From positions 1 to 64,000 of the forward strand of contig NZ_QHLX01000006.1 in NCBI RefSeq assembly GCF_004135675.1: a stretch of 64,000 bases of DNA. Reading direction: 5' to 3'. A program made the position numbers and the translations under genes. Source of the DNA: Marinitoga lauensis (GTDB taxonomy: Bacteria; Thermotogota; Thermotogae; Petrotogales; Petrotogaceae). Of this stretch, positions 9,456-56,170 are shown piece by piece; position 1 is the first letter of the stretch; each line of letters starts with the position of its first letter. Under the pieces are notes generated by a model. The model saw only the letters and a program-made list of their open reading frames with translations. It did no database searches and was not told the DNA's origin.

Positions 9456-10817
9456 TAATATAACCTAATCCTGCAGATTTGTTTGATTTAATTTTTTTTA
9501 TCATTTCTTTATAATTTAAATTATGTTTTTCAGATAGTGATAAAAGTGTTTTTTCAAGGTCATAATTATTTTTCTTTAATTCTTGAGATACTTCTGTATA
9601 ACCTAAAATATCTATTAAAGGTGTAATTATTGTAAATGATTTGAGTAAATTTTCTTCGCATTTATTTATATCTGCTTCTATTAATTTTATATAATTCATT
9701 AAAGAATAGGATGCTTTTTTCAAAAAATCTATTGATTTTAACGTGTAATGAATTATCGCAGGAGTAAGATGATTTAACTCAAAATTTCCCTGACTTGATG
9801 CATGAGTTATTATATTATCAAATGAAGTTACACTTAAAGAAAGTTGTATTACATATTCTGGAATAACAGGATTTACCTTTCCCGGCATTATAGAACTCCC
9901 TGCTTGCAATTTAGGTAATATTATTTCATGAATTGCATTAGAACCAATAATCTAATATCATTAGATATTTTTATTAAATTTACAGCAAGAGATTTCAATA
10001 AACCACTAACTTCAGAAAATACATCTAAATTTTGTGTATTATCTATTAAATTCTCTGCTTTAGCTATTCCAATCCTGGTTATTTCTCTGACTTTACTTGC
10101 TATTTTTAAAATATATTGTTTTGGAGCTGCAATTCCTGTTCCTATAGCTGTTCCACCTATATTAACACTTCTTATTCTTTCCTCAACTTTATATAATCTC
10201 CATCTATCCCTACTCAATGCATCAGCCCATGCACCAAATTCTTGTCCTAACAAAATGGGAACTGCATTCATTAATTGCGTTCTACCAATCTTCTTTATAC
10301 CGATAAATTCTTTTTCTTTTTTTTGTATTTCATCCTGCAATTTAATTATATTTTCAATTAATTCTCTTAACTCCTTTATAATAGCAATTTTTCCCGCTGT
10401 TGGAAATACATCATTTGTCGACTGATGTAAATTGACATGTTCCAATGGTTTAACTATATATTCTGATTTTTTCCCTTCTAAGAATTCAGTAGCTTTATTA
10501 GCAACAACTTCATTAACATTCATATTAATTGATGTTCCTGCACCACCACTTAATGGATCCACTACAATTTCCTTTTTTAAAATTTCCCATTCATCACATG
10601 CATTTACTATGGCATCACAAATCTTTTTATCAATATATCCTAATTCATAATTCAATAACGCTGCTGATTTCTTTATCATAAACATTGCCCATATAAAACT
10701 TTCATTTATGATTTCCCCTGTTTTAGGAAAATTTTTCAATGCCCTATATGTATGTATCCCATAATATACATCATCAGGTAATTTAACTTCACCTATAAAA
10801 TCTTTTTCTACTCTCAT
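9448..10817 (-). CDS. aspA: Aspartate ammonia-lyase (one frameshift)
   Basis: Converts L-aspartate to fumarate plus ammonia. The aspartase/fumarase superfamily signature GSSIMPGKVNPVIPE is present. SGGAGTSINMNVNEVVAN favours aspartase over class II fumarase, which has GSGTQSNMN here. Other family motifs are HLNQSTND-like HLHQSTNDVFPT and GRTQLMNAVPILLGQEF. The frame breaks near 9910-9950 (one base); the repaired protein has about 456 residues, the normal length. It starts two bases after the hydF stop codon with a GAAGGTG site, so it belongs to the hyd operon. It may supply ammonia for hydrogenase cofactor assembly (inference). Confidence 0.9.
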
Positions 10818-10819
10818 TT

Positions 10820-12028
10820 TTACACCTTCTTCAACTCCGGAAAAATTTCAAGAGCCCTATCTAATACTCCATGCAAATAAGATATAATTACACCATAATT
10901 CACAATAGGTATATTATACATTTTTGATATGTGTATTCTTCTTAACATACTTTTTCTGGTCAATGTGCAACCTCCGCAATGTATAATTAACTTAGCATCT
11001 TTTACTATTTCATAATCTGGAAATTCGGTTCCAGCAAAAAAATCTATATTTAATTTTATACCTAAATGGTTTGTCAACCATCTCGGTATTTTAATTCTTC
11101 CTATATCTTCAGTTAACGGTCGATGAGAGCATCCTTCCATAATAATAACCTTATCATTTTCTCTTAAATTTTCAATAGCTTTTATTCCGTCAACAAGAAC
11201 CTGTAGGTCTCCTTTATGACGCGCTTCCAAAATTGAAAACGTAGTTAATGGAATATCAAAATCTATATCTGAAACAACTTTCATAACGCTCTGTGAATCG
11301 GTTACAACAAGGTCTGGTTTTTGATTTAACTTTTCTATTGTATGCCTTAACTCCCTTTCTTTAGTAACAATTGCTACTGCTTCCCTATCTAATATCTCCC
11401 TAATTGCAGTTACCTGCGGCATTATCAATCTGCCTTTCGGAGCTCCAAGATCTATTGGAACGACTAACATAATCAATTGTCCAGGTTCTATCAGGTCTGC
11501 TATTAATGGAATTTCCTCTTCTTTAGGAAGTATTTTTACCATTTTCTCTTTTAATTTCTCAATATTCTTTTTTTCCTTTGCTGAAATTTCTATTATTTCA
11601 TTTGTATATTCCAAACATGTTTCTTTTATTTTTTCTATATTTTTTATTTCATCAATTTTATTTATGACTATTAGAAATGGAATATCCAATTTTTTAAAAT
11701 TATTGATTAATTCTCTTTCATAATTGGAAATTATATCTGTTACAACTAACAAGGCTATATCAGCTTTATATAAGGCTTTTGTAGCCTTTTTAATCCTTTT
11801 TTCTCCAACTGATCCCTCATCATCTATTCCTGGTGTATCTACAATAGTAACCGGTCCAAATGGAACTAATTCCATTGTTCTATAAACTGGATCCGTTGTA
11901 GTTCCAGGCATATTGCTCACAATAGCAATGTCCTGATTCAAAATAGTATTTATTAAAGTTGATTTCCCTACATTCCTTTTTCCTGTTATTGCTATATATT
12001 TTCTATAACCTTTCACCGGAGAAGCCAT
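10820..12028 (-). CDS. hydF: [FeFe]-hydrogenase maturation GTPase HydF
   Basis: Scaffold GTPase that assembles and delivers the diiron subcluster of the H-cluster to HydA. The N-terminal GTPase domain shows GKRNVGKSTLIN (P-loop), PGTTTDPV, DTPGIDD and NKID. The C-terminal half carries the FeS-cluster ligands: the CSH motif in EGCSHRPLTEDIG and, about 50 residues later, HCGGC. Length 402 residues is typical and the frame is intact. Start is supported by AAGGAGG. Located between hydE and aspA with short spacings, so co-transcribed. Confidence 0.97.
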   Translation of the reverse strand: MASPVKGYRKYIAITGKRNVGKSTLINTILNQDIAIVSNMPGTTTDPVYRTMELVPFGPVTIVDTPGIDDEGSVGEKRIKKATKALYKADIALLVVTDIISNYERELINNFKKLDIPFLIVINKIDEIKNIEKIKETCLEYTNEIIEISAKEKKNIEKLKEKMVKILPKEEEIPLIADLIEPGQLIMLVVPIDLGAPKGRLIMPQVTAIREILDREAVAIVTKERELRHTIEKLNQKPDLVVTDSQSVMKVVSDIDFDIPLTTFSILEARHKGDLQVLVDGIKAIENLRENDKVIIMEGCSHRPLTEDIGRIKIPRWLTNHLGIKLNIDFFAGTEFPDYEIVKDAKLIIHCGGCTLTRKSMLRRIHISKMYNIPIVNYGVIISYLHGVLDRALEIFPELKKV

Positions 12029-12029
12029 A

Positions 12030-13130
12030 TTATGCCTCCTTAATAAATAAATTTCTCAGTGTATATGGAGGAATTTTTAATCCCATATCCAATATTTTTT
12101 GTGCTGTTCCCAATAAATCAACTTTTATTTTTTCATCATATATATTGTAATTTTCCCGATATTCATCAGGCGTTAAATTAACCATAATTACATTACACCC
12201 ACAATTTAAAGCTTTAAATTGATAATCTCTGTCTATAGTGCCCAGTGCTGTTGTGGCCGGCATTTGCGCAAATGGTATCGTTAACCTTGTTGCTGCATAT
12301 GCATTTAATGTTAACTCTGCTGAACCATTTTCCAGATTTTCTAAAGGCGTATTATACGTAGAAATAAAAGGACCTATACCTATCATTTTAATATTATGTT
12401 CTTTCATAAAGATTATATCTTTCGCTATATCCTCCAATGTTTGATCAGGTAATCCTATTATATTACCAGAACCAGTTATATATCCTAATTTTACAAGATA
12501 ATCAAGCAATTCTATTCTTAAATCATAATCTTTATCTGGATGTATATTTTCAAATATTTTTCTATTTATTGTCTCGTGTTTTAACAAAACCTTTGAAGCA
12601 CCTGCTTTTCTAAACCGTTCATATGCTTCTTTACTTCTTTCACCAATAGAAATAGAGACTGCTGTTTTAAGTTCATGATGAATTTTGTATATTAACCTTT
12701 CCATATCCTCATCACTATAATAATCGTCTTCACCTGACTGCAAAATTATTGTTGTTAACCCACTCTTCACTCCATTTTTAGCTATTTCAAAAATTTCATC
12801 CACAGGTATTCTATACCTTTTTATTTTATCATTTTGAGCCCTGATTCCACAATAATAACAGTTTTTCTTACAATAATTGCTAAATTCAATTACTCCTTTT
12901 AAAGTAATAATATCTGTGTTTAATGTTTTGTTTACTACATCTGCTACTTTATATATTTTATCTTTTAATCCCTTTTCATTTAAAGAAAGTATCCATAACA
13001 CTTTTTCATAATTCAAAGTCATATGTTTTAAAAAATAGTCAATCACTTTATTTATTTCCTCTGGCATTTCTTCTTTTAAGTCAATTAATCTTGCTTTTAA
13101 TCTCTCTATTCTCTTTGAAATATCTATCAC
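12030..13130 (-). CDS. hydE: [FeFe]-hydrogenase maturation radical SAM enzyme HydE
   Basis: Radical S-adenosylmethionine enzyme that acts on the HydG product during H-cluster synthesis. The radical SAM cluster motif CKKNCYYC (CX3CX2C) lies near residues 88-95. Later come the SAM-binding and barrel motifs LQSGEDDYY, GNIIGLPDQT and AQMPATTALGTI. Length 366 residues is normal and the frame is intact. The only in-frame start near the hydG end is GTG 13130, which lies very close to its upstream GGCG, so translational coupling to hydG is likely. Confidence 0.96.
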   Translation of the reverse strand: MIDISKRIERLKARLIDLKEEMPEEINKVIDYFLKHMTLNYEKVLWILSLNEKGLKDKIYKVADVVNKTLNTDIITLKGVIEFSNYCKKNCYYCGIRAQNDKIKRYRIPVDEIFEIAKNGVKSGLTTIILQSGEDDYYSDEDMERLIYKIHHELKTAVSISIGERSKEAYERFRKAGASKVLLKHETINRKIFENIHPDKDYDLRIELLDYLVKLGYITGSGNIIGLPDQTLEDIAKDIIFMKEHNIKMIGIGPFISTYNTPLENLENGSAELTLNAYAATRLTIPFAQMPATTALGTIDRDYQFKALNCGCNVIMVNLTPDEYRENYNIYDEKIKVDLLGTAQKILDMGLKIPPYTLRNLFIKEA

Positions 13131-13133
13131 CGC

Positions 13134-14551
13134 CTAAAAATAAAGATCTCTTTCGCCTTCTTTAACCTTTTTTATTTTTTCAAGTAATTGTTCTTTTAAA
13201 GGATTATTATTCATATTTTTCAATTCTTCTTCTATTCTTTTTATACCTATTATTTTTGTCTTTTCTGGTGCATAATCTTCTATATATTCTAAAAATGTCA
13301 ATATCGCATTAGGTGTACAAAATCTTTTAACAAATCCAGGTATTGCAAATTCCATGAAATGCTCCCCTGTTCTTCCTAATCTATAACATCCTGTACAAAA
13401 TGATGGTAAATATCCTTCTTCAGCCAATTCTTCAATTATCTGATCCAGAGTTCTATTATCGCCTAACAAAAACTGACTTCTTTTAATTTTTTCATCATCT
13501 GTTTCATGGTAACTTCCAACACCAATTGAAGACCCACCATCTATTTGTGAGACCCCAAACTTCATTACTTCATTCCTTATTTCTACAGGTTCTCTTGCTG
13601 TTAATATCAAACCCGTATAAGGAACGCTCAATCTTAATATTGCCACTAATTTTTTGAATTCATCATCAGAAACTGCATATGGTGGTCTTTCAGCAAGAGG
13701 TGTATCCAATGCAGGTTCCATCCTTGGGAAGGATATTGTATGCGGGCCTACATTAAATCTTTCCTCAAAATGTATTGTGTGATATAATAAACCCATTGCT
13801 TCGAATTTCCAATTATATAAACCAAATAATGCACCTATTCCAACATCATCCAATCCAGCTTGAAATGCTCTATCTAATCCATATAATCTCCAATAGTAAT
13901 TAGACTTTGGACCACTTAAATGATATTTTTTATATGTTTCATAATGATAAGTTTCCTGAAAGATTTGAAATGTTCCTATTCCTACTTCTTTAAATAATTT
14001 ATAATCTTCTACAGTCTGAGGAGCAGCGTTAACATTAACTCTTCTTATTTCCCTTTACCAGACTTTGTATTATATATAGTTTTAATTGTTTCTGTCATAA
14101 ATTTCGCATCATATTTCGGGTGTTCTCCAAAAACCACTATCAGTCTTTTATGTCCTTTATTCTCCAATGCTTTCACTTCTTCAACAACTTCATCTAACGA
14201 TAAACTTCTTCTTTCAATTGTTTTATTTGTAATCCTAAACCCGCAATATTGACAGTTGTTTATACATTCATTACCTATATACAATGGAGCAAATAATACT
14301 ATTCTATTACCATATATTTTTCTCTTTAGCTCTCTTGCTCCCTCAAAAACTTCTTCGAGTAATTCTTTATCTTCAACATTTAATAATATGGCCATTTCTT
14401 CTGGTTCTAATCTATTTTTATCCAAAGACTTTTGTATAATTTCTCTGACTTTTACAGGATCAGGATTTTTTGTTTTTTCTAATAAATCAAATATAGTCTG
14501 TTGTGGAATAAAAGATTTTAAATTATCATTATCTTTAATAAAATACATCAT
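13134..14551 (-). CDS. hydG: [FeFe]-hydrogenase maturation radical SAM enzyme HydG (one frameshift)
   Basis: Tyrosine lyase that makes the CO and CN ligands for the H-cluster. The radical SAM motif CINNCQYCGF is in the N-terminal third. The C-terminal auxiliary-cluster motif CX2CX22C is visible, starting CTGCYRLGRTGEHF and ending at the cysteine of VKRFC. The frame breaks near 14053 (SGKGK-stop against GEIRRVNVNAAPQ); one base restores about 473 residues, the normal length. ATG 14551 has a GAGGTGAG site. It is second gene of the operon, ten bases after the TM1266-like gene. Confidence 0.96.
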
Positions 14552-14560
14552 AATCTCACC

Positions 14561-14809
14561 TCATATCTTTAAAGTATTTGTTTTTACTTTGACAGATTCA
14601 ACCTGACCTAACTTACCTGATAAAGCTCCTAATTCATCAGTTGTCATTTCAACAACTAAAAATATTATTGCTATGCCTTTCTCTTTCATTGGGTATCCTA
14701 CTCTTAGAAGAATCTTCTTACCATAATCGTGTAAAATATCACTTACTTTTTGGTAAGCTATTTCTCTGTTATAAACCACAATAGAAATAGTGCTAATTTT
14801 TTCTTCCAT
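14561..14809 (-). CDS. TM1266-family putative hydrogenase system regulator
   Basis: Small ACT-like protein of 82 residues found next to [FeFe]-hydrogenase maturation genes in Thermotogota and Clostridia, where it is annotated as a putative iron-only hydrogenase system regulator. The protein has a beta-alpha-beta pattern (ISTISIVVYNRE, a helix KVSDILHDYG, then GIAIIFLVVEMTTDELGALSGKLGQV), matching a ferredoxin-like fold. No DNA-binding helix-turn-helix is visible. The start codon lies directly after the T run of a terminator hairpin whose right arm carries the purine-rich ribosome site, so expression is tied to that leader. Confidence 0.88.
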   Translation of the reverse strand: MEEKISTISIVVYNREIAYQKVSDILHDYGKKILLRVGYPMKEKGIAIIFLVVEMTTDELGALSGKLGQVESVKVKTNTLKI

Positions 14810-14934
14810 AAAAAAACCCCCTTCCTTTTAATGACCCAAGGAAGGGGAATATCATTATTCCTCATATCTCCCCTCCCTTGATGTCAGGATTTTTCCCTTC
14901 ACCTCAGGAGAATTTATTCACTTTATTTGTGATT
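14810..14934 (-). promoter_or_regulatory. Leader RNA with terminator and antiterminator ahead of the hyd operon
   Basis: The leader (TATAAT at 14940-14935) carries two mutually exclusive structures. The terminator pairs AAGGAAGGGG-type sequence at 14838-14848 (plus-strand view) with 14817-14827 and is followed by seven Us just before the start codon. The left terminator arm can pair instead with 14869-14879 over 11 positions with one G-U. The upstream CTCCT near 14905-14910 could in turn pair with part of 14869-14879. The layout is that of a transcription-attenuating riboswitch or protein-binding leader. I could not match it to a known riboswitch class. Confidence 0.65.
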
Positions 14935-14990
14935 ATTATAACATTATCATTTTACAAAAATATTAAAAATTAAAAAATATTAAACGCAAT

Positions 14991-15021
14991 AAAATAAGCG
15001 AGCTAATCGCCCGCTTATTTT
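14991..15021 (-). terminator. Terminator after the rubrerythrin-SOR operon
   Basis: AAAATAAGCG and CGCTTATTTT arms around an 11-base loop, with the last T-rich arm overlapping the end of the superoxide reductase gene. Confidence 0.8.
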
Positions 15022-15376
15022 ATTCAACGTCTATTTCTTTTTCTGATTCCCATAAACCGTGTATATTACAATAAGAATGAGCAATTAATGTTCCTTTTTT
15101 ATCAAGTTTTATATGAGTAATTACATGTGGTTCTGTAACTGATGGACCAAATTCAAATCTTCCTAAATGAATAGTATTTGGATTACCTTCGTAATGAACA
15201 TATAAATCTATCCAGGCAATATGATGTTCTACAGTGTTAGGATGTGGAATATCCTTTCCTACCTGAACTTCAACCTTAAATAATTCCCCAGATTTCACTT
15301 TTTCTGGAGCATCTATTACAGGAACATGTTTCTCATTTTTGAAATCTGCACTTTTAATTACATCTCCTAATTTCAT
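15020..15376 (-). CDS. Neelaredoxin-type superoxide reductase
   Basis: Reduces superoxide to hydrogen peroxide in anaerobes without making oxygen. The one-iron (class II) domain is visible: Glu and His in EKHVPVI, the histidines of VEHHIAWIDLYVHYEG, and the Cys/His ligands of AHSYCNIHGLWESEKE at the C-terminus. There is no N-terminal desulforedoxin cluster. At 118 residues the length fits neelaredoxin. ATG 15376 is chosen because GAGGAGGG precedes it; the upstream in-frame codon at 15391 lies before that site and overlaps rubrerythrin. Co-transcribed with rubrerythrin. Confidence 0.94.
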   Translation of the reverse strand: MKLGDVIKSADFKNEKHVPVIDAPEKVKSGELFKVEVQVGKDIPHPNTVEHHIAWIDLYVHYEGNPNTIHLGRFEFGPSVTEPHVITHIKLDKKGTLIAHSYCNIHGLWESEKEIDVE

Positions 15377-15387
15377 GCTTTCCCTCC

Positions 15388-15897
15388 TCAAAATTCTTTA
15401 AATTTGTCTGCTGGAGCCCCACATACAGGACATTTTTCAGGCACTTCATCAAATGTTGTATACCCACAAATCGCGCATATAAATATTTTTTTATCTTCTA
15501 AATCTTCATTTGACTTCAAATATTCTCTTGCATCATTATACATTTTTTCATGAATTTTCTCAGCTTCTAATGCAAAATGTGCACTTCTTACTGCCTCTTT
15601 TTCTTCCTGAAATTCAGATGCATTTTTATATACAGGATACATTTCTTCAATTTCGAAATGTTCTCCTGCTGCTGAATCCTCTAAATTAGCATCAACTGCA
15701 CCTAAATATCCCAATGCTTTAAAATGATTTCTTGCATGAACAAACTCAGCATAAGCTATAGCTTTCCACAATCTTGCTAAATTCTTTTTTCCTTGTGCTT
15801 CTGCATCTTCTGCATAAATAGAATATTTCATATGAGCTTTGGATTCCCCACAAAATGCATCTTCTAAAAATTTTCTTGTCATTTCTTTCTTAACCAT
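15388..15897 (-). CDS. rbr: Rubrerythrin
   Basis: Non-haem diiron peroxidase that removes hydrogen peroxide, using a C-terminal rubredoxin site for electrons. The diiron ferritin-like domain has the Glu/His ligands in FCGESKAHMKY, YAEFVHARNHF and AEKIHEKMY. The rubredoxin domain has CAICGY and CPVCGAP at residues about 140-160. Length 169 and the frame are intact, with AGGGGGTGG before the start. It is the first gene of a two-gene oxygen-defence operon: superoxide reductase makes peroxide and rubrerythrin removes it. Confidence 0.96.
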   Translation of the reverse strand: MVKKEMTRKFLEDAFCGESKAHMKYSIYAEDAEAQGKKNLARLWKAIAYAEFVHARNHFKALGYLGAVDANLEDSAAGEHFEIEEMYPVYKNASEFQEEKEAVRSAHFALEAEKIHEKMYNDAREYLKSNEDLEDKKIFICAICGYTTFDEVPEKCPVCGAPADKFKEF

Positions 15898-53968: not shown

Positions 53969-54070
53969 AGACTGTTGACAAAGTATAAAAAAATAATATG
54001 AGAGAAGGCTTGAATTTTTCCGAAAAAAATATGAATGAAATTAGCCAATTTTGCATGGATGCAAAATTGA

Positions 54071-54163
54071 GCGAAACCGAGCATGGATGTGAGTTTGAGC
54101 GGCTAATGAGAACGAATATTTTTTGAGGATAAAAAAATTCACCGCCTGAGCGAATATTATTTT
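54071..54163 (+). repeat. 93-bp direct repeat, left copy (IS target duplication)
   Basis: Identical by eye to 56078-56170. It is the right half of the palindromic element in which IS copy 2 landed. Confidence 0.88.
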
Positions 54164-56077: not shown

Positions 56078-56170
56078 GCGAAACCGAGCATGGATGTGAG
56101 TTTGAGCGGCTAATGAGAACGAATATTTTTTGAGGATAAAAAAATTCACCGCCTGAGCGAATATTATTTT
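56078..56170 (+). repeat. 93-bp direct repeat, right copy (IS target duplication)
   Basis: Identical by eye to 54071-54163 and directly adjacent to the right inverted repeat of the IS. Confidence 0.88.

Follow-up and report, generated by a model that had tools for sequence, protein, structure and literature searches.

A leader with competing stems precedes the hydrogenase maturation operon

We analyzed a stretch of 64,000 nucleotides (nt) from Marinitoga lauensis (contig NZ_QHLX01000006.1; hereafter the window), whose minus strand carries, in this order, a gene for a TM1266-like protein, hydG, hydE, hydF and an aspartate ammonia-lyase-like gene. The leader of this hydrogenase maturation operon, which runs from a probable extended −10 element (14935–14943) to the ATG at 14807–14809, contains a conserved dyad hairpin (hereafter the element), a terminator and an antiterminator (Table 1). 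A first-pass annotation had described the terminator from the sequence, and its two arms and the seven U residues indeed all lie at those places on the minus strand, with the ribosome site of the first gene (GGAAGGGGG) inside the right arm and the ATG adjoining the U tract. The alternative pairing of the left arm with 14869–14879, given as 11 positions, is also present and proved longer: the antiterminator comprises 17 pairs between 14869–14886 and 14832–14848, with a predicted energy of −28.1 kcal/mol compared with a mean of −14.2 kcal/mol for dinucleotide shuffles (z = −5.2). Likewise, the CTCCT that had been suggested to act as an anti-antiterminator corresponds to the CUCCU that forms the 5′ strand of the conserved hairpin, so that this suggestion proved correct.

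Folding of the leader as a whole was stronger than that of its shuffles (z = −2.73, with 2 of 200 as good). The fold combining hairpin and terminator (−40.2 kcal/mol, calculated for 14800–14945) and the antiterminator fold (−39.7 kcal/mol, calculated for 14800–14935, a stretch differing by 10 nt) were nearly isoenergetic. A simple pattern scan listed neither the leader terminator nor a minus-strand promoter; the terminator was probably missed through the scan's loop limit of 8, as the loop between its arms measures 10 nt. A chance origin of the pairings is excluded mainly because they are conserved across relatives, as described below.

Table 1. Coordinates of the leader elements and operon genes in the window
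Feature	Position	Strand	Basis or remark
Probable extended −10 promoter (TGT TATAAT); transcript start probably near 14928	14935–14943	−	sequence reading
Conserved TM1266-associated dyad hairpin, 46 nt (putative anti-antiterminator element)	14868–14913	−	model R1, 62.8 bits, E = 9.9e-13
P1, 5′ strand CUCCU	14906–14910	−	partner 14873–14877; P1 covaries
P2, 5′ strand GGUG	14900–14903	−	partner 14880–14883; P2 varies, pairing kept
Purine–purine internal loops flanking P2	14904–14905/14878–14879 and 14898–14899/14884–14885	−	
Antiterminator 5′ strand, inside the 3′ half of the hairpin	14869–14886	−	duplex with 14832–14848
Shared strand: antiterminator 3′ strand, including terminator left arm (14838–14848)	14832–14848	−	
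Terminator right arm (14817–14827, holding the ribosome site) and U7 (14810–14816)	14810–14827	−	abuts the start codon
TM1266-like protein, 82 amino acids, proposed RNA-binding regulator	14561–14809	−	TIGR03959, 90.9 bits (cut-off 60.8); PF21699, 98 bits; related to solved structure 2NZC
hydG, in two frames, break near 14045	13134–14551	−	TIGR03955 in two pieces
hydE	12030–13130	−	TIGR03956 over cut-off
hydF	10820–12028	−	TIGR03918 over cut-off
Aspartate ammonia-lyase-like gene, 5′ part in one frame	9921–10817	−	NF008909, 399.5 bits (cut-off 510)

The hairpin is conserved, covaries and is nearly two-fold symmetric

A TM1266-like gene was present in 33 of 61 related genomes, for which 30 loci were returned, one being the window genome's own; 22 of these 30 leaders contained the same ∼46-nt block. 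We built a covariance model, R1, from 21 leaders including that of the window; L018 was excluded, as its leader duplicates the L016 leader (G and L numbers are our handles for genomes and loci). At an expectation value (E) ≤0.001, R1 matched in 64 of the 103 genomes of the phylum (Thermotogota), and its single match in the window genome was the leader hairpin itself (14868–14913), whose sequence is among the model's 21. An alignment of 58 elements (55 distinct), which was fitted to the model and hence leans towards the structure, had 98.3% of cells in standard pairs and two-sided changes in 7 of 12 pairs. Cells with two-sided changes numbered 95 compared with 32.4 ± 8.5 in shuffles, and sliding the structure along the alignment dropped the pairing to 42–68%. 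A MAFFT alignment of the first 21 leaders gave the same picture (98.0% paired), and RNAalifold, unprompted, returned nearly the same hairpin.

Both strands of the hairpin follow the pattern CUGA-N4-RAGG. The result is a nearly two-fold symmetric structure in which a 4-bp helix lies between two similar purine-rich internal loops. The half-site was found on both strands in 52 of the 55 distinct Thermotogota elements (pattern CTRA-N4-RRRG). The two N4 segments make up the 4-bp helix, and their sequence varies: GGUG/CACC (27) and GAUG/CAUC (14) are most frequent, and GAUC/GAUC, GGCU/GGCC and GGUC/GACC are rarer. The purine loops, in which GA faces RA, each adjoin a U·G pair (U–A instead in 3 of 55 elements) and may form tandem sheared G·A pairs.

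The first-pass annotation had matched the leader to no known riboswitch, in agreement with our Rfam searches: the whole window gave three matches, none within the leader, and a search of 14700–15050 with E up to 10 returned chance-level matches only, the best scoring 20.7 bits against a gathering score of 80.

The competing stems are kept in relatives

Among 56 distinct Thermotogota element loci, a terminator was detected in 50 and not in six (L012, L048, L053, L068, L070 and L072). The competing duplex reached z < −2 relative to dinucleotide shuffles in 42 of the 50 leaders (mean over the 50, z = −4.3), and these 42 keep the same competing pairing although their sequences differ. In relatives, the competing pairing is thus conserved and the hairpin covaries. 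Mutually exclusive stems that lie before the gene and persist in this way suggest a terminator/antiterminator attenuator, and the earlier view of a riboswitch-like leader that could gate both transcription and translation is supported, at the level of sequence, by this conservation, the covariation and the mutually exclusive pairings.

In three loci (L025, L028 and L069), GAGGAGGU of the hairpin's 3′ arm stands directly before a TM1266 start codon and is its ribosome site. Because the arm is itself the ribosome site there, a stabilized hairpin would mean OFF in both designs.

A diverged element occurs beyond Thermotogota

Starting from a TM1266-like record of Candidatus Omnitrophota, we examined 285 genomes of that phylum, of which 67 had TM1266 over the cut-off, and found a diverged element before TM1266 in their leaders. 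The Thermotogota-only model R1 matched 5 of 27 searched Omnitrophota loci at E < 0.01, in each case a short way upstream of TM1266, and helix P3 is rebuilt in Omnitrophota with many paired changes (parsed by script). A second model, R2, was built from 24 Omnitrophota leaders; counting matches within 700 nt upstream of TM1266 at E ≤0.05, it detected the element in 57 of the 67 genomes (24 of 24 training genomes and 33 of 43 others).

By eye and with no chance control, a similar hairpin was recognized ahead of TM1266 in three records from Bacillota, and in Acetoanaerobium the loop of the downstream terminator, again by eye, also complements the 3′ half of the hairpin. In the phylum of an Opitutaceae record (Verrucomicrobiota-like), TM1266 was present in 91 of 288 genomes, and none of the 30 loci searched gave a convincing R2 match (best E = 0.24). 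In 12 of these 30 leaders, a loosely defined pattern with a related layout was seen with no chance control and is a lead only; of three examples folded, two share the hairpin shape and one does so roughly. In addition, L177, L179 and L180 from this group carry two similar hairpin patterns in tandem.

The element follows the TM1266 gene rather than the maturation pathway

All 64 element-bearing Thermotogota genomes have TM1266. Using HydF over its cut-off as the sign of the maturation pathway (71 Thermotogota genomes), the element was present in 63 of 65 genomes with TM1266 and in none of the six without it (Fisher p = 2e-7, phylogeny ignored). In five of these six, which belong to one genus, the hydG-hydE-hydF loci contained no element even in an unfiltered R1 search (best, 10 bits). 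The same comparison in Omnitrophota (99 HydF genomes) gave an upstream element in 57 of 67 genomes with TM1266, and R2 matches in 3 of 32 without it, at E 0.012–0.048, with 1.6 expected if the E-values are taken literally (p = 2e-13, with no correction for phylogeny or training). Unfiltered searches of the HydF neighbourhoods in 12 of these 32 genomes gave a best score of 16.6 bits (E = 0.017), located just past hydF and not before it, and the 42 strongest R2 matches were all in TM1266 genomes. The distribution of the RNA therefore matches that of TM1266 and not that of the maturation pathway: it was found where the gene of the putative regulator is present (64 of 64) and, apart from three weak matches in 32, not in its absence (0 of 6), as would be expected of a protein-gated element.

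We set aside a paralogous CPF_0552-like protein (CxIKTRLGLHD motif) as the partner, as four genomes with only such a below-cut-off match (G026, G032, G033 and G037) have no element. Separately, in two Omnitrophota loci without TM1266 over the cut-off (L226 and L227, in G179 and G159), a CxIKTRLGIHDKCSD-like paralogue adjoins hydF, as if it stood in for TM1266.

Copies of the element precede other hydrogenase genes

That the element might be confined to TM1266 leaders was rejected, since copies were also found before hydF, hydG and hydA. Judged from coordinates, six genomes have copies before hydF (G057, G061, G092, G094, G069 and G080). Copies before hydG and apart from TM1266 occur in eight Thermotogota genomes, with hydG identified by family scan in G022, G057 and G043 and from N-termini in G021, G023, G052, G055 and G061. 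Another copy precedes a hydA-TM1266 pair in G050 (hydA by family scan), and in the Omnitrophota genomes G360 and G329 a copy precedes hydG, with TM1266 located on a different contig. The order element-TM1266-hydF in G151 was not counted as a copy away from TM1266. All genomes with copies away from TM1266 carry TM1266. The sites combine an anti-antiterminator hairpin and conserved non-helical bases with repetition across a regulon, as in PyrR-type systems.

In L067, L071, L081 and L082, the element ends in a AGGAGGUU arm, with no more than a short frame between it and hydG; these elements may be remnants of a former TM1266 site, TM1266 now being elsewhere in these genomes. One copy in G064 lies between the apparent end of a hydrogenase gene (by eye) and an ATP-binding cassette (ABC) transporter (L070, 2430–4957), whose permease and ATPase resemble known families. 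Annotated ABC transporter genes also come after TM1266 in Vescimonas fastidiosa (L118, 3501–6088). It is possible that these transporters form an uptake system tied to H-cluster assembly.

TM1266 as the candidate trans-acting partner

The window protein passed the TM1266 family test with 90.9 bits against a curated cut-off of 60.8 (TIGR03959), and both NCBIfam and Pfam name the family a putative regulator. Over the residues compared by eye, the sequence of structure 2NZC, which we take to be the Thermotoga maritima protein, equals that of the protein whose gene follows the element in L057, L058 and L060, the start excepted; these identical genes are the basis for taking the first set of genomes to be Thermotogota. 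Across 30 TM1266 sequences, R36, G38, P40, G65 and G68 are invariant, with no Cys or His among the invariant residues. Resemblance to NikR_C was weak (E = 0.087) and did not reach the cut-off; it hints weakly at an 'ACT-type' fold. In a Thermotoga neapolitana data set, CO2 raised the TM1266 homologue 6.0-fold, hydG 6.4-fold and hydE 7.5-fold (PMC7039931), which fits strong co-regulation of these three genes.

We propose, with a probability of roughly 0.6, that the element has the TM1266-like protein as its trans-acting partner, which stabilizes the hairpin and represses its own operon in a PyrR-like OFF attenuator. The nascent leader would first fold the short symmetric hairpin. Without the protein, the next stretch of RNA would capture the hairpin's 3′ half, the antiterminator would form and the operon would be transcribed. 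The TM1266-like protein, as product of the first gene, would close a feedback loop by binding and holding the hairpin, whereupon the left terminator arm would stay free, the terminator would form, transcription would stop and the ribosome site would be buried. Binding would probably depend on a metabolite or cofactor state that TM1266 senses. More broadly, we would give even odds to the view that the TM1266 proteins form a new family that controls attenuation by binding RNA. On this view, its members would be homo-oligomers of the ACT type that recognize an RNA operator of near two-fold symmetry, with two CUGA/RAGG half-sites, and would signal how H-cluster assembly stands to the hydA, hydG, hydE and hydF transcripts in several bacterial phyla.

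Several observations weigh against the proposed role of TM1266. Its association with the element partly reflects shared ancestry, as five of the six HydF-positive, TM1266-negative Thermotogota genomes come from one genus and the sixth is 60% complete. Three Thermotogota genomes with TM1266 (G035, G042 and G053) lack the element, an unfiltered search around TM1266 giving at best 12.3 bits, and 10 of 67 Omnitrophota TM1266 genes have no R2 match. Eight of 50 Thermotogota leaders have little or no antiterminator pairing, namely seven with a ribosome-site-like 3′ arm, GAGGAGGU or AAGGAGGU (L025, L028, L067, L069, L071, L081 and L082), and L075 (z = −1.7). The pairing is also weak in Omnitrophota (z < −2 in 7 of 22), where symmetry is weaker as well (double half-site in 11 of 24). 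The RRM_1 match of TM1266 is weak (E = 0.18) and means little, and we know of no report of RNA binding by TM1266. R2 matched at E < 0.003 in 12 TM1266-negative genomes where ∼0.9 were expected, showing that its E-values are too optimistic. We rejected these 12 matches as counter-examples: nine lie inside and one partly inside same-strand open reading frames of at least 90 codons, the two outside such frames are L155 and L164, none stands before a maturation gene, and none of the 12 genomes has HydF over the cut-off. They look like chance matches of a short model. Finally, in the same T. neapolitana CO2 data, hydF, which may or may not have the element in that species, rose only 1.28-fold (PMC7039931).

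The earlier annotation had left the input open between a ligand linked to H-cluster assembly and the TM1266-like protein itself. The protein is favored because the element follows its gene and not the maturation genes; the main rival remains a pure small-molecule riboswitch, a new class whose hairpin would itself bind a ligand of H-cluster assembly (iron, the tyrosine product, a cyanide- or CO-bearing intermediate or S-adenosylmethionine (SAM)), perhaps as two copies in the two alike purine loops, TM1266 being co-regulated in another role. Such an RNA would suit the strongly conserved internal-loop bases, the simple mutually exclusive switch and the hydrogenase genes found downstream in nearly all cases. 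It is nevertheless rather unlikely, as the leader matches no Rfam riboswitch and the element is absent from HydF genomes without TM1266 (save the three weak Omnitrophota matches), where pathway and intermediates should exist.

Less probable still is a mechanism that needs a third partner besides TM1266 and the RNA, or one in which TM1266 only helps the RNA to fold faster, as a chaperone, with the sensor elsewhere. The small size of TM1266, its lack of a nucleic-acid-binding domain above cut-off and the 10 of 67 Omnitrophota loci without an R2 match could be read in this way; the link to TM1266 is nonetheless tight in two phyla, although no search aimed at further partners was made. In a last alternative, attenuation would be unregulated or purely thermal: termination would affect a constant share of transcripts, and the fold would do no more than determine the basal level of expression. 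The near-equal energies of the two states and the many thermophiles among the hosts would agree with this view. We consider it very improbable, given that the internal-loop bases are conserved far beyond what terminator and antiterminator need and that the hairpin persists even in leaders where its arm serves as ribosome site instead.

Integrity of the operon and neighbouring features

hydG (13853–14045) and the aspartate ammonia-lyase-like gene (near 9921) have one frame break each, while the TM1266-like gene, hydE and hydF are intact. Similarity of the aspartate ammonia-lyase-like gene runs on beyond 9921 in another frame, and this break is probably why its score stays below the family cut-off. 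The breaks suggest indel errors of the assembly, which is 87.9% complete; despite them, the leader agrees with the leaders of relatives. Directly upstream of the operon and on the same strand lie rubrerythrin-like and desulfoferrodoxin-like genes (15020–15897, minus strand), separated from it by a terminator-like hairpin (14996–15012). Elsewhere in the window, a TwoAYGGAY RNA (RF01731, 47.7 bits) was found at 53997–54153. A 47-nt piece of it, starting at 54082, recurs identically ∼2 kb downstream (∼56089–56135), where there may be a second copy.

Relation to known regulatory systems

Pairing TM1266 with a specific RNA in a defined regulon makes the question of how cells match H-cluster assembly to need directly testable with a solved protein (2NZC) and a 46-nt RNA. 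If the proposal is true, it would add an RNA class absent from Rfam and an RNA-binding protein family, and provide a means to adjust [FeFe]-hydrogenase maturation when hydrogen is to be produced. In the openly accessible literature searched, we found neither a description of the element nor a target of the 'putative regulator' TM1266. Term searches in PMC8632094, PMC11109978, PMC2965389, PMC3636130 and PMC3543383 likewise yielded no recognizable description of the element.

The closest parallels come from well-studied leaders and sensors. PyrR is a small protein of the operon it controls; it binds an anti-antiterminator hairpin to cause termination, and its sites repeat along the regulon. The system proposed here would share with the PyrR attenuator (RF00515) the operon-encoded small protein, the anti-antiterminator hairpin and the repeated sites, but it involves another protein family and a double half-site hairpin, and the leader scores only 20.2 bits against the RF00515 gathering score of 54. 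LicT and SacY sites are short hairpins with two internal loops that are bound by a protein dimer and overlap a terminator, the protein stabilizing the antiterminator (ON). The element resembles them as a short hairpin with two internal loops; unlike them, it opposes the antiterminator, which by its anatomy points to OFF, and the proposed partner belongs to TIGR03959/PF21699. In SAM-I riboswitches, aptamer, antiterminator and terminator are mutually exclusive, and the leader likewise has an aptamer-like hairpin with exclusive antiterminator and terminator, yet it differs from such OFF riboswitches in lacking an Rfam riboswitch match and in a distribution that follows a protein gene instead of a pathway. 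ACT-type sensors of small ligands are common, and the weak, below-cut-off resemblance of TM1266 to the C-terminal domain of NikR points in that direction; unlike NikR, the 82-residue TM1266 is too short to include the DNA-binding part and has no invariant Cys or His. Protein-gated attenuation is thus a known kind of mechanism, whereas the RNA class, its symmetry and the role proposed for the protein family appear, as far as we have seen, to be new.
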